The notes under the pieces are model-generated. The model made no database searches. It saw nothing but the letters and a program-made list of their open reading frames with translations, and was not told where the DNA came from. A stretch of 64,000 nucleotides of DNA from Azotobacter salinestris (GTDB lineage Bacteria; Pseudomonadota; Gammaproteobacteria; Pseudomonadales; Pseudomonadaceae): contig NZ_CP045302.1 of the NCBI RefSeq assembly GCF_009363155.1, positions 323,001 through 387,000 of the forward strand. The letters run 5' to 3'. Positions 24,854 through 43,465 of this stretch are shown here, in pieces (within the stretch, counting starts at the first letter, position 1; each line of letters begins with the position of its first letter). Made by a program: the position numbers and the translations under genes.

Positions 24854-25825
24854 TCAAAGCGGATCGGAAAGCTTCGGCAGGGAACAGGAATCGCTCTCCA
24901 GAAGCGGCCTGGCAGCCAGGCCGCCGAAGGACAGGGTAGGGTCGATGTAGCGCATGGCCGATTTCACATCCTTCCAGCCGACGTAGCCCATCAGGCTCTT
25001 GAGGTCCCAGCCATTGGCGGCGGCCCAGGTGGCGAAGCCGCGGCGCAGCGAGTGGCTGCTGTACGACTCGGCCGGCACTCCGGCGCGCTCCAGGATCTGC
25101 CGCAGCAGGGCGATGAGGCTGTTGGGGTTGAGACCGTCGGCGCCGAGGTTGCCCCAGCGGTCCAGCCGGCGGAACACCGGCCCCTGGGTCAGGCCGGCCA
25201 GCTCGATCCAGTCCAGATAGGCCTGCACTGGACACAGCCGCTTCAGCGCCGGGGCGCGGCAGGTGGTGCCGAGAAAGTCGCGGTCGCCCTTGCTGCGCGG
25301 CAGATGGATCTCCATGCCGACGCCGGCCACCGCCTGGATGCGCTCGACCTCCAGACGGCACAGCTCGTCGCTGCGAAAGCCGCGCCAGAAACCGAGCAGC
25401 AGCAAGGCAGCGTCGCGCCGATAGCGCAGCAGGGTGGCGCTGTCGTTCCGGGCGGAGGCCTCGTTGGCTTCGGCAGCGAGCCAATCGACGGCCTGTTGGA
25501 GATGCTGCAGTGGCAAGGGCGCGGCCTGTTTTTCCCGCGCCGGATGCAGGGCCCGAATGCCCTTGAGCACCTGGCGCACCACCGGCGCCTTGGTCGGGTC
25601 GGGAAAGCCCTGGGAGATGTGCCACTGGGCCAGAGCGGCGAGGCGCAGCTTCAGTGTGTTGAACGACAGCTTGTCGGCGTGGGCGACCAGATAGCGCGCC
25701 ACGCTGTCGCCGGTCGCCGGCAAAAAGCCGCCCCAGCTCACCTCGAAGTGCTCGATGGCTGCCTGGTAGCTGCGCCGGGTGTTCTCCCGGGTGCCGGCCT
25801 GCAGGTAGCGCTCGATCTCGCTCAT
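24854..25825 (-). CDS. Tyrosine recombinase (site-specific integrase)
   Basis: The 323-residue protein has an N-terminal core-binding domain (residues 1-105, NTRRSYQAAIEHF) and a catalytic domain. The active-site residues are visible: the first Arg in GFRSDEL, His and second Arg in HSLRRGFATWAA, Trp/His position in GYVGWKDVKSAM, and the nucleophile Tyr in MRYID. Length and order are those of XerC/D-type and integrative-element recombinases. It diverges from the KfrA-like gene, suggesting both belong to one mobile element. No element ends were found. Confidence 0.88.
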   Translation of the reverse strand: MSEIERYLQAGTRENTRRSYQAAIEHFEVSWGGFLPATGDSVARYLVAHADKLSFNTLKLRLAALAQWHISQGFPDPTKAPVVRQVLKGIRALHPAREKQAAPLPLQHLQQAVDWLAAEANEASARNDSATLLRYRRDAALLLLGFWRGFRSDELCRLEVERIQAVAGVGMEIHLPRSKGDRDFLGTTCRAPALKRLCPVQAYLDWIELAGLTQGPVFRRLDRWGNLGADGLNPNSLIALLRQILERAGVPAESYSSHSLRRGFATWAAANGWDLKSLMGYVGWKDVKSAMRYIDPTLSFGGLAARPLLESDSCSLPKLSDPL

Positions 25826-25946
25826 CGCCCATCTCCAGTACGAAAAGCGCCATTCTCGCAGCTGCCTGCGTGGCTGTCAGCGGATAACCCTTAATTATCA
25901 AGTCTCAGGAATTGCCATTTTCCATATCCATCCTGGTACAAATTAG

Positions 25947-25971
25947 TATGTAATTACATATTATGTAAAAC
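25947..25971. promoter_or_regulatory. AT-rich palindromes in the integrase/KfrA-like intergenic region
   Basis: TATGTAA-TTACATA at 25947-25960 is a perfect 14-base palindrome. An overlapping inverted pair, TACAT-ATT-ATGTA, follows at 25956-25968. The 3' part, TTATGTAAAAC at 25961-25971, matches 9 of 11 bases of the XerD arm of the dif site at 36119-36129. Such sites could bind the KfrA-like protein (KfrA represses its own gene in plasmids) or be a recombination half-site. Confidence 0.4.
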
Positions 25972-26000
25972 AGTATTAAATCTCGGGAGAGCAGGGACCC

Positions 26001-27035
26001 ATGGCACGTGGCGGCATCAACAAGGCACTGGTCATGCGGGCACGGCAGGCGCTGCTGGCCCGCGGCGAACATCCCGGCATCGACGCGATACGCGTCGAGC
26101 TGGGCAATACCGGCTCCAAGACCACCATCCATCGCTACCTGAAGGAGCTGGAGGAAAGCGAAGCCGGGCAGGCGAGCAGGAGCGCCAACACTTTGAGCGA
26201 CGAACTGGCCGCACTGATCGCGCCGCTGGCCGCGCGCCTGCAGGACGAGGCCGAGGAAACCGTCGCGCGGATGCGCCAGCAGTGCGACGCCGAGCGAGCG
26301 GATTTCGAGGCGCGCCTGGTCCAGGCGCAGGAGCAAATCGGCCAGTTACAGGGGCAGGTCGACAGCCTTTCAGGCCAACTGCAGGCCGAGACGGAGCGTC
26401 ATCAGCAAAGCCGCGAGCAGCTGCAGCAGGCCGAAGTCGAGCAGGTGCGCCTGCGCCAAGCCAACCAGGATCAGGCTGCACACCTGAAGGATCGCGACGA
26501 GCAGGTGCGCTCGCTGGAAGAGAAGCACCGGCACAGCCGCGAGGCGCTGGAGCACTACCGCCAAGCCAGCAAGGAGCAGCGCGAGCAGGAGCAGCGCCGC
26601 CACGAAGCCCAGCTGCAACAGGTGCAGATGGAGCTGCGCCAGTTGCAGCAGACGCTGATCCTCAAGCAGGACGAGGTGACCCAGCTGAACCGTGCCAACG
26701 AGCGCCTGGCCAGCGAGAATGCCTATAGAGCGAAGGAGCTGGAGGAACGGCGCGACCGGCTGGAGCGGCAGGCCGGTGAGCTGGCCGCGCTGCAGGGGCA
26801 GTTGAGCCAGTCCCATGCCGCCAGAGAGGTTTTGCAGGAGCGCCTGGGTCTGCTGCAGGCGGAAACGGGCGAGCTGAAGGCCACTCTCGACACGCAGCGC
26901 CAGGAGGCGCAGGCGCTGCACATCGGCCTGGCGGCGGCCAACACGGAGCTGCAGTTGCTGCGCCAAGCCGTGGCGAACGCGCAGGAGAGGGCGCCCGAGC
27001 CAGAGGCGTCACCGGAGCGGCAGGAGGAGTCCTGA
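26001..27035 (+). CDS. KfrA-like coiled-coil DNA-binding protein
   Basis: The 344-residue protein starts with the KfrA-type helix-turn-helix (residues 1-50; ARQALLARGEHPGIDAIRVE, then a Lys-Thr-Thr-Ile-His-Arg recognition helix). Residues 70-330 are an almost unbroken, Gln/Glu/Arg/Leu-rich coiled coil. KfrA proteins bind their own promoter and form filament-like assemblies linked to plasmid segregation (family knowledge). Chromosomal copies next to tyrosine recombinases are often found in mobile elements. The ATG at 26001 has GGGAG at a slightly long spacing. Confidence 0.82.
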   Translation: MARGGINKALVMRARQALLARGEHPGIDAIRVELGNTGSKTTIHRYLKELEESEAGQASRSANTLSDELAALIAPLAARLQDEAEETVARMRQQCDAERADFEARLVQAQEQIGQLQGQVDSLSGQLQAETERHQQSREQLQQAEVEQVRLRQANQDQAAHLKDRDEQVRSLEEKHRHSREALEHYRQASKEQREQEQRRHEAQLQQVQMELRQLQQTLILKQDEVTQLNRANERLASENAYRAKELEERRDRLERQAGELAALQGQLSQSHAAREVLQERLGLLQAETGELKATLDTQRQEAQALHIGLAAANTELQLLRQAVANAQERAPEPEASPERQEES

Positions 27036-27747: not shown

Positions 27748-28602
27748 AACGTGAGCCGCGCGCCCTTCGTGCTGGCCAAGAGCGAAAGCCCCTTCGCCCG
27801 CGAGCTCCGCGCTTTCGACAGCACCATCGGCGCGCGCTTTCCCAATCCGCGGGTGGAGGCCGAGTTCGGCGCCGACTCCATGCCGGAAACCGCCGACAAC
27901 GTGGCCCGCATCCTGGGCATCGACCGCGCGGCGGCCGACCGCTACGCCGAGCGCAGCCAGCGGCTGTACGCCGCGGCCGCCGAGGCCGGTTTCTACGCGG
28001 ACGAGATCCTGCCCATCGAGGTCGCTCAAGGACGCCGCCAGCCGCCGAAAGTCGTGGCGAGCGACGAGCACCCGCGCCCGGACACCAGCCTGGAGTCGCT
28101 GTCGCGGCTGCCGGCGCTGTTCGCCGGGGGCGTGGTCAGCGCCGGCAACGCCTCCGGGGTGAACGACGGCGCTGCGGCCCTGCTGCTCGGTTCGCGGGCG
28201 ATCGGCGTGCGCTACGGCCGCAAGCCGCGGGCGCGCATTCTCGCCGGCGCCATCGCCGGGGTGGAGCCGCGGCTGATGGGCCTCGGCCCGGTGCCGGCGA
28301 TCCGCAAGGTGCTGAAGCGCACCGGGCTGAGCCTGATCGACATGGACACGATCGAGATCAACGAGGCCTTCGCCGCCCAGGTGCTGGGCTGCGCCCGCGA
28401 ACTGGGCCTGGCCTGCGACGAGCCGCGGCTCAACCCCAACGGCGGCGCCATCGCCATCGGCCACCCGCTGGGCGCTTCCGGTGCGCGTCTGGTGCTGACT
28501 GCGCTGCGCCAGCTCGAACGCACCGGCGGGCGCCATGCGCTGGTCAGCCTGTGCATCGGCCTGGGGCAGGGGATCGCCTGCATCGTCGAACGGCTGGACT
28601 GA
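27748..28602 (+). pseudogene. 5'-truncated thiolase (acetyl-CoA acyltransferase)
   Basis: The frame begins abruptly at the thiolase motif MSRAPFV (here VSRAPFV), which normally sits about 115-120 residues into the protein. Everything after it is well kept: [54 protein letters not shown] and CIGLGQG. The N-terminal lobe and its nucleophilic Cys are gone, so no thiolase activity is expected even though the second active-site His and Cys remain. It lies upstream of the glutaryl-CoA dehydrogenase gene, suggesting an acyl-CoA degradation operon whose front was lost. A GTG at 27751 could still start a 283-residue product. Confidence 0.8.
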
Positions 28603-29973: not shown

Positions 29974-31260
29974 ATGACCGAACTCATTCCCCAGCCGCTG
30001 TTCGACACCTATGCGCGCTTCCTGGCGCTGTCTCCAAGCAGCCTGGTGTTCGAAAACCGCTTCGTCGTGCGTTTTCTGAACAGGCTCGAACCGGAGCTTC
30101 CGGCCAAGAACGATTACCTGCACACCCGGGACTTCCTGCGCTCCTACGCCGGCTGGGAAACCACCTACAAGGCCTACCGCATCCAGGTGGAGCGGCTGTT
30201 GCTGTGGTGCTGGCTGAAGAAGGGGAGTTCGGTGCTGAAGCTGACGCGCGAGGACGCCGAGGCCTTCCTCGGCTTCTGCCGCGAACCGGACATGGAGTGG
30301 GTCGGCCAGGCGGTGCGGCGGCGCTTCATCGCCGGCGAGGAGCCCGGCGAGCTGGTGCTCAATCCGCAATGGCGTCCCTACGAGAGCCTCGGCAGCAAGG
30401 CGGCGCGCAAGCTCGCCGACGAGACCGGCATGCCGCGCCAGGCGCCGGAGCATTACAAGGTCACGGCGAGTTCGCTGAAGCAGGCCTTCACCATCTGCTG
30501 TTCCTTCTACGACTTCCTGGTCGGGCAGAATACGCTGCTCGACAACCCGTTCCGCGCCATCGAGGAGCCGGGCCGCTTCTTCGAGAAGCGCGCGCCCTCG
30601 ATCGAGGGCAAGGTGCTCAACCCGCTGCAGTGGGCGTTCGTCATCGAGACCGCGGAGTGGATGGCCCATCAGGATGCGGAGCGCCACGAGCGCACGCTGT
30701 TCGTGGTCGTCGTGCTGTTCTCCCTGTACCTGCGCATCTCCGAGCTGGCCGGTCGGCCCGACTGGCATCCGACTATGCAGGCCTTCCAGCAGGACGAAGG
30801 CGGCGCCTGGTGGTACGTGACCGTCGGCAAGGGCGGCAAGGAGCGGCGGATCTCGGTCGGCAGCGAGCTGCTCGGCTACCTCAAGCGCTACCGCATGTCG
30901 CGCAACCTGACGCCGCTGCCGCAGCCCGGCGAGAACGTGCCGCTGCTGCTGAAGCTGGACGGTCGCGGCGGGCTGACCGACCGGCAGATCCGCAACATCG
31001 TGCAGAAGTGCTTCGACACCGCGGTCAAGCGCATGCAGGCCGAGGGCCGCGGCGAGCGGGAAATCGCCAGCCTGCGCGCCGCCAGCACCTACTGGCTGCG
31101 CCACACCAGTGCCAGCTACGACGCGCCGCACCGGCCGCTCAGGCAATTGCAGGTCGATCTGGGCCACGCCAAGGCCAGCACCACTCATGACATCTACTAC
31201 AACAGCGTCGCACCGGAGCGCACGCCCACGGGGCGCCCGCGCCGGCTGAAGCGCCGCTGA
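29974..31260 (+). CDS. Large tyrosine recombinase (site-specific integrase)
   Basis: The 428-residue protein has an extended N-terminal region (1-200) with a SAM-like DNA-binding part (YKAYRIQVERLLLWCWLKK) and a catalytic domain with Arg in LYLRISELAG, His/Arg in YWLRHTSASYD, His in DLGHAKASTTHD, and the nucleophile Tyr in IYYN. It is of the type found alone or in recombinase-in-trio arrangements. The ATG at 29974 has only weak ribosome pairing. A lox-like palindrome lies 40 bases upstream. It is convergent with the FMN glutamate-synthase-like gene, with no gap between stops. Confidence 0.88.
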   Translation: MTELIPQPLFDTYARFLALSPSSLVFENRFVVRFLNRLEPELPAKNDYLHTRDFLRSYAGWETTYKAYRIQVERLLLWCWLKKGSSVLKLTREDAEAFLGFCREPDMEWVGQAVRRRFIAGEEPGELVLNPQWRPYESLGSKAARKLADETGMPRQAPEHYKVTASSLKQAFTICCSFYDFLVGQNTLLDNPFRAIEEPGRFFEKRAPSIEGKVLNPLQWAFVIETAEWMAHQDAERHERTLFVVVVLFSLYLRISELAGRPDWHPTMQAFQQDEGGAWWYVTVGKGGKERRISVGSELLGYLKRYRMSRNLTPLPQPGENVPLLLKLDGRGGLTDRQIRNIVQKCFDTAVKRMQAEGRGEREIASLRAASTYWLRHTSASYDAPHRPLRQLQVDLGHAKASTTHDIYYNSVAPERTPTGRPRRLKRR

Positions 31261-32885: not shown

Positions 32886-34072
32886 TAGTGTGGTGAATCA
32901 CAAGTTCGCTTCATTATTTCTTTGCAAGGCTCGAGCAGCCCTGCCGACAGAGGCCAGGATTTCACCTGCTCCCTTACGCCAGCGGAAGGGCCTTGGATTC
33001 TGGTTGTAAGTCGCCAGGTAATACTCGATGGACTGCTCGAGATCCTTCACGCTGGTATGGGCCTGGCGCCTTATCCACTTCTGGGTGAGCATCGAGAAAA
33101 AGCGCTCCACCAGATTCAGCCATGACGCGGACGTCGGGGTGAAATGCACGTGATAACGCGGGTGCGCGACAAGCCAGGCGCGCACCTTGTCGGTCTTGTG
33201 CACGGCATAGTTATCCATGATCAGGTGGATGGCCTTGTCGCTCTCGACCGTTTCCTCGATGGCCCTGAGAAACTCCAGGAATTCTGCGCTGCGGTGACGG
33301 CGCTTGAGACGTCCGATCACCTCGCCGGTGGCCACATCCAGGGCGGCAAACAAGGACGTCGTGCCATGGCGCTGATAATCATGGGTACGGGTCGCCGGAT
33401 ACCCAGGCTCCAGCGGCAGCCCCGGCTGTGTTCGATTGAGCGCCTGGATCTGGCTTTTCTCATCGACGCACAGTACCAGCGCCTTATCCGGCGGATTCAG
33501 GTAGAGCCCTACGATATCCTGCACTTTGTCGACAAAGGCGGGATCGGTGGACAGCTTGAAGGTGTGCTCCAGGTGAGGCTTGAGCCCGAAGGCTCGCCAG
33601 ATACGCTGTACGCTCGCCGGTGAAATATGGGTGGCCTTGCTCATCCGGCGCGAGCTCCAATGACTGGCATCGTCGGGCCGGGTCTGCCGCACCCGGTCGA
33701 CCACTTCCTGGACCTTTTCATCGCTGATGCTGCGTGGGCGGCCTGAGCGCGGCTCGTCATTGAGGCCTTGCAGGCCCAAACGGGCGAAGCGAAGGCGCCA
33801 CCTCGAAACGGTTTGCGCCGTAATGCCGAGCCGTCGAGCAATGGAAGAGCCGGACTCGCCTCGAGCGCAGGACAGAATGATCTCGGCGCGCAGCTGCATA
33901 TCGGCAGGCCCCTTGTGCCTGGCTCGGCGGCGGGTGAGTTCGGCATGCTCGTGTTCGGTCAGTTCGATCCGAACGGCTGGGCGGCCTGTTTTCATCGCAT
34001 GCCCTCCGAAAAAACTCTGTCAGCTCCGCGGTAGACAAGTCTTATCCTGAGTAGTTGTGATTCACCACACTA
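32886..34072 (-). mobile_element. IS630-family insertion sequence with 18-bp perfect ends
   Basis: The ends TAGTGTGGTGAATCACAA (32886-32903) and its exact reverse complement (34055-34072) bound a 1187-base element that encodes one DDE transposase. The outermost TA on each side is the duplicated target typical of IS630/Tc1/mariner. The transposase stop codon lies inside the left terminal repeat. Both ends are intact, so it may be active or recent. Confidence 0.93.
32898..33995 (-). CDS. IS630-family transposase
   Basis: The 365-residue protein has an N-terminal helix-turn-helix ([18 protein letters not shown]) and an arm rich in Arg. Its DDE catalytic residues are visible in [12 protein letters not shown] (Asp), [12 protein letters not shown] (Asp) and [10 protein letters not shown] (Glu). 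The frame is uninterrupted, and full-length for the family. It cuts and pastes the surrounding element into TA targets. Confidence 0.93.
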
Positions 34073-35893
34073 GAGCGGATCGGAGTATTTCGGGGGAGTA
34101 ACGGGTTCTTCCAGAACGTCCCGGGCGAACAGGCTTTCGAGATCGTCGAAGTAGGCGTGGGTGGTCCTGAGGCTGGCGGCCTCGTCGCTGACCACCTTGT
34201 GCAGCTCCTGCAGCATTTGCTCGTCGTGGCGGCGGAAGCGCTCGATGCGCGCACTGGCCTGCTGTTCGCTCAGGCCCAGCCCGAGCAGCACCTGGCGGCC
34301 CATCTCCAGGCTGGAGAAGAAGGTCTCGCGCACCGGGCCGGCATCCAGGTCCAGCAGGGTATGCAGCTGCTCCCAGTCCAGGGCGCGGGTGATCACCTTC
34401 ATGTGCGGATAGCGCTGGCGGACCAGGCGGGCCGTCTGGATGTTCGCCTGGCCGTCGTCGGTGGCGATGACGAAGAACTGCGCATGCTCGGCCTTGGCGG
34501 CGTGCAGGATCTCCAGGCGCAGGGGATTGCCGTAGTAGATCGGCAGGTCGCTGACCTTGCGGTGGAATTCCACCGCCTCGACCGCCGTGTCGAAGCCCAC
34601 GAAGGGTACGCGCTGGGCGTGCAGGAGGCGGGCGACGACCTGGCCGACCCGCCCCATGCCCATGATGATCACTCGCGGTTCGTGGTCGATGTACGGGGCC
34701 TCGTGGGACTGTACAGCCGGTTGGCGGACCGATCCGGAAAGCCGCGAGAGCAGCACGACGACCAGCGGAGTAATGGCCATCGACAGGGTGATGGTCAGCA
34801 CCAGCAGATCGTGGAGTCTCTCGTCGAACAGCCCGTGGTTGCGGGCGATGGAAAAGATCACGAAGGCAAATTCGCCGCCGCCGGCGAGCACCACGCCCAG
34901 GCGCAGCGCGGAGTCGGGCTGCAGATGCCCGGTATGCCGCCCGACGAAGGCGATCAGGGGCAGCTTGAGCAGGATCAGCAGCAGGGCCAGGCCGAGCACC
35001 GTCCAGACCGACTCGACCAGCAGGTCGAGGTTCATGTTCATGCCGACGCCGAGGAAGAACAGCCCGAGCAGCATGCCCTTGAAGGGCTCGATCTTCGCTT
35101 CCAGGGCATGGCGGTACTCGGACTCGGCCAGCAGCACGCCGGCCAGGAAGGCGCCGAGGGCCATGGACACGCCGATCCACTCCATCAGCAGGGCGCTGCC
35201 CATCACCACCAGCAGGGCGGTGGCGGTAAGGATGTCCTGCATGTCACCCTTGGCCACCATGCGGAACAGCGGGCGCAGCAGGTAGCGGCCGCCGATGACC
35301 AGGCCGCCCACGCAGGCGACCACCTTGAACAGCTCGACCAGCGGGTCTTCGCCGCTGTCCGGCCGGCTGACGCCGCTGAGCAGCGGAACCATCGCCATCA
35401 GCGGAATGGCGGCGATGTCCTGGAACAGCAGCATCGAGAACGCCAGGCGCCCGTGGGGCATGTGCAACTCGCGGCGCTCGGCGAGCAGCTGCAGGACGAA
35501 GGCGGTGGACGACAGCGCCAGGCCGAGGCCGAGGACGAGGGCGCTGGTCCAGTGCTGCTGGAAGAAGGCCATGGCCACGCCGCCGATGGCCGCGCCGCAC
35601 AACAACACCTGTGCCAGGCCGGCGCCGAACACCGCATGGCGCATCAGCCAGAGTCGCTTCGGCGACAGCTCCAGGCCGATGATGAACATCAGCATCACCA
35701 CGCCCAGCTCGGAGATCCGCATGATGCTGCCGGGCCGATCGATCAGGCCCAGTACGCCGGGACCGATCAGCACGCCGCCGATCAGATAGCCGAGCACGGC
35801 ACCCAGCTGCATGCGCTTGGCGAGCGGCACGAGCAGGACCATGGCAATCAGGCAGACCACGCTGGCCTGTAACAGGCGCGACTCATGTTCCAC
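34070..35893 (-). CDS. CPA2-family (Kef-type) monovalent cation:proton antiporter
   Basis: The 607-residue protein has 12-13 membrane segments in residues 1-385 (GYLIGGVLIGPGVLG, LALSSTAFVLQLLAE, FLAGVLLAESEYRH are the family hallmarks) and a cytosolic TrkA-N Rossmann domain from about 405 to 530 (VIIMGMGRVGQVVARLL), which senses nucleotides. It exports K+ or Na+ in exchange for protons in the inner membrane, as in glutathione-gated Kef systems. The start is a GTG with AGAGGT upstream. Its stop TAG shares its TA with the IS630 target; the stop would have been the same before insertion. Confidence 0.9.
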   Translation of the reverse strand: MEHESRLLQASVVCLIAMVLLVPLAKRMQLGAVLGYLIGGVLIGPGVLGLIDRPGSIMRISELGVVMLMFIIGLELSPKRLWLMRHAVFGAGLAQVLLCGAAIGGVAMAFFQQHWTSALVLGLGLALSSTAFVLQLLAERRELHMPHGRLAFSMLLFQDIAAIPLMAMVPLLSGVSRPDSGEDPLVELFKVVACVGGLVIGGRYLLRPLFRMVAKGDMQDILTATALLVVMGSALLMEWIGVSMALGAFLAGVLLAESEYRHALEAKIEPFKGMLLGLFFLGVGMNMNLDLLVESVWTVLGLALLLILLKLPLIAFVGRHTGHLQPDSALRLGVVLAGGGEFAFVIFSIARNHGLFDERLHDLLVLTITLSMAITPLVVVLLSRLSGSVRQPAVQSHEAPYIDHEPRVIIMGMGRVGQVVARLLHAQRVPFVGFDTAVEAVEFHRKVSDLPIYYGNPLRLEILHAAKAEHAQFFVIATDDGQANIQTARLVRQRYPHMKVITRALDWEQLHTLLDLDAGPVRETFFSSLEMGRQVLLGLGLSEQQASARIERFRRHDEQMLQELHKVVSDEAASLRTTHAYFDDLESLFARDVLEEPVTPPKYSDPL

Positions 35894-36101: not shown

Positions 36102-36129
36102 AGTTCGCATAATGTATATTATGTTAAAT
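36102..36129 (+). other. dif: Chromosomal dif site (XerCD dimer-resolution site)
   Basis: The 28-base site has XerC arm AGTTCGCATAA, central region TGTATA and XerD arm TTATGTTAAAT. The central region and XerD arm are identical to the Escherichia coli dif site as I know it, and the XerC arm differs only at the outer bases, as in Pseudomonas. It lies in a non-coding gap of 354 bases (35894-36247) that is AT-rich around the site. XerC/XerD act here with FtsK at the terminus to resolve chromosome dimers. The rest of the gap shows no gene. Confidence 0.92.
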
Positions 36130-36247: not shown

Positions 36248-38719
36248 CTACAGGCACGCGATGGCCTCCTTGAGCTGGGCGATCAGCGCGGGAATCGCAT
36301 GCAGGTGTTCCTCCTCCTCGGCGAGCACCTGCTCGAAGGCGCGTTTTTTCAATGCTGCAATATCGAAATTGCCGCGCACACTCACCGGCGCCGTGCTGAG
36401 GAGGATGTCGAAAAGCCGGTCCACCGCATGCAGGCGTCCCCACAGGTAGTCGTTCTCGCGGATCGAACGGCCGAGAAAGCCGCCGAAGCTGGCGAGCGAG
36501 CGGCCGAGCAGGACGTCCTTCTGGCCTTCGATCCTGAGGCTGGTCGCATCCTCGGGACTGATGCGGTCGACCAGGATCTCCTCGATGGGGCCCGCATCGG
36601 TATCCAGCGACAGCGCACTCACGGTTGGGCGCAGAATGATGTCCCAGAAGAAATATCCCAGATAGCCGGTAAGAATGGCATCGCGGCTCGCCGCCTCCAG
36701 GCCCAGCACCAAGGGCGAAGCCAGCATGGCATCGGCGTCGTCCGCGGTTCGGGCGAGGTCGCACTCCTGCGCCAGGCGCTCGACCAGCCGGGCTATCTCC
36801 TCGAAAGTAGCCGGCTCGGGCAAGGGGACGGCGCCGAAAACCGCGGATTTCGCGCCCTCCTCCAGGAAAATATCCCGGCAGGCGGCGATCGCCTGTCGGC
36901 TGAGAAAATCGATGCTGTCGTAGATCGACAACTCGTCGATGCACTTGTGGATCTTGATCTTCAGCAGATCGAGGGATTCCGAGTGGCCGATGCTGAGCGG
37001 ATCGTCGGAGACCTCGGGATAGTGTTCGTTGATTTCGTGCAGGACGAAGTTCAATCGCCTCCTCTTATAGATCACGCCGAAATCCAGAATCATCTTCCCG
37101 TAAGGCGGCAGCTCGGCGTTGTTGTAGAGATTGTCGGGCATGACGTAGGAATCGGTAATGATCCCCTGTTGTCTTGCCCAGCTCTCGATGATGTCCTGGA
37201 CTCGACACGCCTCCGGCGAGTTGGCGGTGAACTGACAGGCACTGGTGATGATCTGCACGATGTAGTCCAGGGCCTCGAGAACCAGCGAGCGCATCCACAC
37301 GTCATAGACGACCGTGGTCCCGGCCAGCAGGCTGATCGACGAAAGCCGCCAGTGCCGCAGGTCGTCGGCCGAGAAGCTCCCCCGCAGCCCGCCCGCCGTC
37401 GCCTGCTCGATCAGCTTCGCGGCCAGGGGTCTGGCGCTGGAGATCGCCGTCTTGAGACGTCTGGCCTGCACGTTGTAACGACTGATGACCGCCAGTTCGT
37501 TGTATACCGGATCATGCCGCGGCAGGTCCGAGAGCGCGCCCCGCAGGGTAGCGAAAAAGCCCGGAACGCCAGCCCCGGGCGCTGCCTTGTCGATCCCTGG
37601 ATGGGGATCGATGAAGACCAGGCGGCGGTCCACCTCCCGGAAGGCGCAGTGCGTGCGGATGGCCTCGACGCAGGCCATGATCGGCTTGTTGTCGAGCACG
37701 CTGCCGTCGAGCAGCACCGCCTCCTCGGGATTCTCGCCGCGCTCGCGATAATGGCGAAAATTCCGCTCCAGAAAATGCGCGCGTGCCGGCCAGGGGACAT
37801 GGCGCTCGGCCAGAATCTCGTCGATTTCGCGGATCCGGGCGGGCGGAAACGCGCCGGGAAAGGAAGCCGTCGCCCGTCCCGCAAAGGCCAGGGAGGGAAA
37901 GTTGTCCACGTCGAAATCGCTGAGAAGATGTCCGGTCTTGCGATGGTCGAGGCCGAACCGCAGAAGGTGGCGGTGCTCCCGCTCGTAGGCGACCGGTGGA
38001 TCATGGATGAAGATCGGCCGCTCGATTCCCCGGAAGTCCGTGACCGTCACCAGAAGATCCAGTCTGGCCCCCTGGGGCAACAGCGACTCCCACGGCGAGC
38101 TGGAGGTTTTCATCGCCGTCAGGGCATCGAGGATGAGCGTGGTCAGGCGCCGGCCGTCCAGGGGCGGTTTGAACCAGCGGGAGCGCAGGAACACCGAGAT
38201 CCGCTTGGCGATTTCGGCATCGGCCTTTCCCGGCAGCAGGCCCTCGCGGTCGAGCCGGGTGAGCAAGGGCCGCATCAGCGGCCAGAAATACCACTTGCTC
38301 CAGAGCCGCGCCTTGGCCTCGGGTGCCAGCAGGTTCAGCATGTCCGCTTCCTCGAGCCATATGCGGGTGACCGGTATCAGGCTGCGATCGTGAGCCAGTG
38401 CCGTGGCCAGGGTCACACCGTTGATGCCGCCCGCCGAAGACCCGGCGATGACGTCGACGATCACTCTCAGGCACACGTCCTTGCCCAGCGCCTCCAGGAA
38501 CTCAAGATAGACATCGCCGGTGGAGTTCTCCGGCTCGTCCGGGTAGTTCTCGTGCAGGCGGCGCGACGGCTTTTCCCGGCCCTCACCGGCTCTGTCGCCG
38601 TGATAGAGCTTCGAGGCCCGAACCAGATTGAGGATTTCCCGATTGATGCCGTGCTGGTAGATCGCAAGCGACACGCCGCCGAACAGGACGACCGCCAGCC
38701 GAAGCTCTTTCTCTTTCAT
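36248..38719 (-). CDS. Patatin-related phospholipase-like protein (long form)
   Basis: The 823-residue protein has a patatin domain at its N-terminus: the oxyanion Gly-rich loop LRLAVVLFGGVSLAIYQHG, the nucleophile elbow IAGSSAGGING (Gly-X-Ser-X-Gly) and the catalytic Asp in LLDGSVLDNKP. A long helical C-terminal extension fits the 'patatin-related' family around TIGR03607/DUF3376. It may act as a lipid acyl hydrolase; substrate and location are unknown. The ATG at 38719 was chosen because the domain begins right after it; the upstream frame to 38854 is unlike protein. Its stop is 119 bases from dif. Confidence 0.83.
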   Translation of the reverse strand: MKEKELRLAVVLFGGVSLAIYQHGINREILNLVRASKLYHGDRAGEGREKPSRRLHENYPDEPENSTGDVYLEFLEALGKDVCLRVIVDVIAGSSAGGINGVTLATALAHDRSLIPVTRIWLEEADMLNLLAPEAKARLWSKWYFWPLMRPLLTRLDREGLLPGKADAEIAKRISVFLRSRWFKPPLDGRRLTTLILDALTAMKTSSSPWESLLPQGARLDLLVTVTDFRGIERPIFIHDPPVAYEREHRHLLRFGLDHRKTGHLLSDFDVDNFPSLAFAGRATASFPGAFPPARIREIDEILAERHVPWPARAHFLERNFRHYRERGENPEEAVLLDGSVLDNKPIMACVEAIRTHCAFREVDRRLVFIDPHPGIDKAAPGAGVPGFFATLRGALSDLPRHDPVYNELAVISRYNVQARRLKTAISSARPLAAKLIEQATAGGLRGSFSADDLRHWRLSSISLLAGTTVVYDVWMRSLVLEALDYIVQIITSACQFTANSPEACRVQDIIESWARQQGIITDSYVMPDNLYNNAELPPYGKMILDFGVIYKRRRLNFVLHEINEHYPEVSDDPLSIGHSESLDLLKIKIHKCIDELSIYDSIDFLSRQAIAACRDIFLEEGAKSAVFGAVPLPEPATFEEIARLVERLAQECDLARTADDADAMLASPLVLGLEAASRDAILTGYLGYFFWDIILRPTVSALSLDTDAGPIEEILVDRISPEDATSLRIEGQKDVLLGRSLASFGGFLGRSIRENDYLWGRLHAVDRLFDILLSTAPVSVRGNFDIAALKKRAFEQVLAEEEEHLHAIPALIAQLKEAIACL

Positions 38720-42367: not shown

Positions 42368-43465
42368 TAATCAGGCCCTTAAATTCACGCCATGGCATAG
42401 CGTGCTGCAGGATGCTGGAAATAGGCCATGACCTTGTCGGGCAAGCTGCCGAGTGTGTTCATGAAAGCCATCGCCTTGTCCAGCAGGCTGGCCTTGTCAT
42501 GGCTGACCGGGCCGCTGCGCAGCGCCGTCTTGAAATCCCGATTCAGGTACTCGTCGGGATTGGACTCGGGCGCATAGGGTGGTAGGAACACCAGTTCGAT
42601 CCTGTCCTGCTTGTCACTGAGCCACTCGCTGACCACCTTGGCATGGTGGACGCGCAGGTTATCGACCACCAGGAAGATCTTCTGCGGTGTCCCTTCAACG
42701 AGGCGGCTCAGGAAGTCGATGAAACGCAGCGCGTTGATACTGCCTTCGACGATCTGGAAGGCCACCTCGCCACGGGGCGAAATTGCGGAGATCATCGACA
42801 GCTTGTGCCAGCGAGTGGGCGTCGCCAGCACTGGCGTCTGGCCCCTGGGGGCGTAGCCGCGTATCCAGTTCGCATCCTCCTTGACTGCGGTTTCGTCCCC
42901 CCAGTGAATCACCGCTCCTTCGGCAGCGGCGCGCGCCTTGACCTGGGGGTAGGTCTGCTTCAGCCAGCGCTCGATGTCCTCCGGCCGCTGCTCCTGCGCC
43001 CGCTTCACGGGACGCTGAGGCGTAAACCCCCAGCGCTTGAGATACTTGCCGATCAACCGGTCCTGCAGCTCGATCCCGAGGCGTTCCCTGGCCAGCGCCT
43101 TGATGGCCGGGCGCGTCCACAGGGCAAACGGCAACTGCAGCTGCTGCGGGGGTTGCTCGACGATTTGCTCGCGCAGCCACTGCTCGTCGGCCGGCGTCAG
43201 CTTGCGGCAGGCGCCCGCCGGGCGCCCCCGACGCTTTTCCTCCAGGGCTTGCGCGCCCTCGCGGTTGGCACGGGTCAGCCAAGTCTTGATGGTGGTCGGA
43301 TGCACACCGGTGACCGAGGCCAACTCCTCGACTTTCATGTTGGACTGCTGGCGCAGGCGAATCACTATCTGGCGAAGCAGCTTGCGACTCTCTGCGGTCA
43401 GTTTGCGGGCGTCGATCTTTTCCATGCCTGAAGTCTAACTAGACGTCTATTTAAGGGCCACCTTA
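42368..43465 (-). mobile_element. Second IS630-family element
   Basis: Imperfect terminal repeats (left ATCAGGCCCTTAAAT, right in reverse complement AGGTGGCCCTTAAAT; 12 of 15 match) abut TA on each side at 42368-42369 and 43464-43465. The roughly 1.1-kb element carries one transposase gene. It differs in sequence from the IS630 element at 32886. It is inserted 14 bases from the 3' end of the broken carboxymuconolactone decarboxylase gene. Confidence 0.82.
42385..43425 (-). CDS. IS630-family transposase (second type)
   Basis: The 346-residue protein has an N-terminal helix-turn-helix (VEELASVTGVHPTTIKTWL), and DDE residues in VIHWGDETAV (Asp), IFLVVDNLRVHH (Asp) and ESNPDEYLNRD (Glu). The frame is intact. 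It is only distantly related to the other IS630 transposase of the window, by motif spacing and termini. Confidence 0.9.
   Translation of the reverse strand: MEKIDARKLTAESRKLLRQIVIRLRQQSNMKVEELASVTGVHPTTIKTWLTRANREGAQALEEKRRGRPAGACRKLTPADEQWLREQIVEQPPQQLQLPFALWTRPAIKALARERLGIELQDRLIGKYLKRWGFTPQRPVKRAQEQRPEDIERWLKQTYPQVKARAAAEGAVIHWGDETAVKEDANWIRGYAPRGQTPVLATPTRWHKLSMISAISPRGEVAFQIVEGSINALRFIDFLSRLVEGTPQKIFLVVDNLRVHHAKVVSEWLSDKQDRIELVFLPPYAPESNPDEYLNRDFKTALRSGPVSHDKASLLDKAMAFMNTLGSLPDKVMAYFQHPAARYAMA

Follow-up and report, generated by a model that had tools for sequence, protein, structure and literature searches.

At cell division, XerC and XerD act at the dif site to separate daughter chromosomes that are joined to each other; in Escherichia coli the site reads GGTGCGCATAATGTATATTATGTTAAAT. 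The corresponding site of Pseudomonas aeruginosa PAO1 is GATTCGCATAATGTATATTATGTTAAAT, according to a survey of proteobacterial dif sites (PMC2731167). The analysed window, meaning the whole stretch of 64,000 nucleotides (C2:323001-387000, on a contig C2 of 4,929,889 bases), carries the 28-mer AGTTCGCATAATGTATATTATGTTAAAT on the forward strand at positions 36102-36129, exactly as described in the original prediction of a dif site with two arms around TGTATA. The sequence can be divided into AGTTCGCATAA-TGTATA-TTATGTTAAAT and fits the proteobacterial dif consensus, consisting of an 11-bp XerC arm, a 6-bp centre and an 11-bp XerD arm. Compared to E. coli dif, the centre and the entire XerD arm are identical; there are two mismatches in total, both located at outer positions of the XerC arm, and the neighbouring genes are different. 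The P. aeruginosa PAO1 and Azotobacter sites have in common a 26-base core and the 11-6-11 layout (PMC2731167), and both lie near the GC-skew maximum. All three elements, located on the forward strand, have been compared with the P. aeruginosa sequence: the XerC-binding arm AGTTCGCATAA (36102-36112) shares its nine inner bases, while the central hexamer (36113-36118) and the XerD-binding arm TTATGTTAAAT (36119-36129) match it (PMC2731167). Only the two outermost bases differ, being AG at the start of Azotobacter dif and GA in PAO1. No earlier report of dif in Azotobacter was found in the searchable literature, which is an annotation gap and not a surprise. The site is already known in kind and brings no new biology; it pins down where the terminus of this Azotobacter chromosome lies, which helps annotation and the orientation of the replichores. 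We regard positions 36102-36129, with near certainty, as the ordinary chromosomal dif of an Azotobacter chromosome and the likely site of FtsK-activated XerCD dimer resolution.

The number of copies was analysed in the whole genome (5.29 Mb in three contigs). At up to three mismatches dif is single-copy with the centre fixed, and likewise with the central hexamer left free; no further copies were found in the genome, contigs C1 and C3 included. A resemblance arising by chance would be an alternative explanation, and nothing was found in its favour: dinucleotide shuffles of the window gave no dif matches, the chance expectation being zero, and for the 26-base core the true site has no mismatches and the runner-up eight among 3,196,000 sampled positions, both strands counted, so that the probability of this explanation is negligible.

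The position of the site on the chromosome was determined from GC skew, from the origin and from the polarity of the KOPS motif GGGNAGGG, using a contiguous 400 kb around the site and 20-kb samples taken every ~80 kb. Within the contiguous region the cumulative GC skew reaches its maximum 2,167 bases to the right of dif. The dnaA gene is located at C2:2.694 Mb, i.e. 2.33 Mb from dif, half of the contig being 2.46 Mb. Assuming that contig C2 is a complete circle, as its length and skew suggest, dif lies ~130 kb off the exact dnaA antipode, which corresponds to a modest replichore asymmetry; the site is thus at the GC-skew switch and roughly opposite the origin. Within 100 kb of dif, KOPS occurs 28 times in forward and once in reverse orientation on the left side, and once in forward and 18 times in reverse orientation on the right side. 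The ratio of favoured to unfavoured orientations is therefore 46:2, a stronger polarity than the 27:8, 49:17 and 28:11 of related G-rich octamers. In the whole-arm samples the counts are 160:30 on one arm versus 33:113 on the other; the preference switches sign at dif and near dnaA, and the polarity converges on dif. The placement of the replication terminus in the window is supported because the single copy, the GC-skew switch (peak 2.2 kb from dif) and the reversal of KOPS polarity at 36.1 kb (28:1 to 1:18) all agree, these being the checks proposed with the original prediction.

The same results bear on the possibility that the sequence, rather than being the native dif, is a chromosomally located XerCD site of a mobile-element or plasmid type (an IMEX attachment site or pdif). 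Such an origin is conceivable in this group, as relatives carry extra XerCD sites with altered centres and one more is present on an A. chroococcum plasmid; however, the site in the window has the canonical centre, is the sole copy in the genome, lies at the GC-skew and KOPS switch, and its neighbours are kept across Azotobacter, which makes this explanation very improbable. A search of plasmids with the 700 bp surrounding dif gave no match.

The native dif is flanked by two genes encoded on the reverse strand. The left neighbour (34070-35893) is a kefB/kefC-like K+ efflux antiporter gene, which adjoins dif in A. beijerinckii and A. chroococcum too, and the right neighbour (36248-38719) encodes a patatin-like protein (TIGR03607) and adjoins dif in A. 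chroococcum and in a further Azotobacter genome, G003. A. beijerinckii and A. chroococcum are the nearest named relatives. In A. chroococcum dif is located between the kef-like and patatin-like genes, as in the window; in A. beijerinckii the kef-like gene is beside dif and the patatin gene ~3 kb away; in G003 the patatin side is retained and the opposite side has been replaced. The exact 26-base core is present in all four Azotobacter genomes, and in each of the three others dif coincides with a sign change of the GC skew and a reversal of KOPS direction. At the family level, 89 of 119 genomes possess a site no more than two mismatches from a slightly relaxed pattern.

The protein partners of dif are present as well, the genome encoding XerC/XerD-type recombinases and an FtsK with a gamma domain. 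There are 14 Phage_integrase matches on C2; the two top-scoring ones have open frames that span 321 and 300 aa and, judging by score and open-frame length, are likely XerC and XerD. The two integrases near dif were rejected for this role, as they reach 27-54 bits versus XerC/XerD model cut-offs of ~330. A single FtsK-gamma gene, whose open frame spans 1002 aa, is located 86 kb from dif. Recombination at the site itself would follow from the established knowledge of dif, XerCD and FtsK, and the mechanism is likely the textbook one, i.e. standard FtsK-activated XerCD dimer resolution. Homologous recombination between sister chromosomes can yield a circular dimer. Polarised KOPS converging on dif would then guide FtsK, which is anchored at the septum, and FtsK would join up two dif copies. 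Its gamma domain would activate XerD and subsequently XerC, and strand exchange at the 6-bp centre would restore the monomers.

The original prediction also held that dif explains a dense accumulation of recombinases, IS elements, decayed genes and accessory blocks on both sides. Pfam scans covering most predicted genes indicate that the window genes are mainly metabolic and transport genes, for example those for a molybdopterin-binding oxidoreductase, XdhC, a chaperonin, an acyl-CoA dehydrogenase, an ABC transporter, an AMP-binding enzyme and two-component regulators. The enrichment test comprised two families, tyrosine integrases and IS630. Two tyrosine integrases (24854-25825 and 29974-31260) were observed versus ~0.16 expected from the rest of the chromosome, a small, nominal excess from a post hoc test. 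The two IS630-type transposases (32898-33995 and 42385-43425) represent no clear excess over the ~0.9 expected. These expectations used chromosome totals of 15 integrases and 71 IS630 copies; the listings give 14 and 75, respectively, which leaves the picture unchanged. The comparison of clearly truncated genes with an intact relative covered one gene, the pcaF thiolase gene (27751-28602): it is missing 118 residues at its start, whereas A. beijerinckii has it in full length. Some plasticity of the window is thus real, but the results do not establish a general enrichment; the claim of a density driven by dif is weak, and dif need not be the cause of the plasticity.

The first of the integrase genes and a gene for a KfrA-like coiled-coil DNA-binding protein (26001-27035) are arranged divergently and occupy 24854-27035, ~10 kb from dif; the KfrA-like gene counts among the mobile genes of the window, together with the two integrases and the two IS630-type transposases. 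The start of pcaF seems to have been removed by a rearrangement next to this KfrA/integrase block.

Extra XerCD-type sites have been noted in the relatives; no altered-centre site of this type was found within the window. The A. beijerinckii genome, which also has a normal dif, contains a second site (L069:3501-3526, from G001:C36) with perfect inner arms and the centre TCTATC, which has a fragment of a LacI-type regulator on one side and an IS-type transposase frame on the other. Five altered-centre sites come from another genus of the family (L064:9819, L065:636, L066:9067, L067:9265 and L068:9585); in L064 and L068, synteny extends over 8.5 kb on one side of the site, whereas the other side differs, like an insertion edge. 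It is possible, albeit doubtful, that sites with intact arms and an altered hexamer, as found in A. beijerinckii, the other genus and the A. chroococcum plasmid, point to mobile elements that depend on Xer, or to the resolution of plasmid dimers, in this family. The plasmid in question, pAcX50e of A. chroococcum NCIMB 8003 (132 kb), carries the dif-like site GTTCGCATAATGTTTGTTATGTTAAATTGC (L138:4001-4030), with a PRTRC ParB gene ~2 kb away, and this site perhaps serves the resolution of plasmid dimers.
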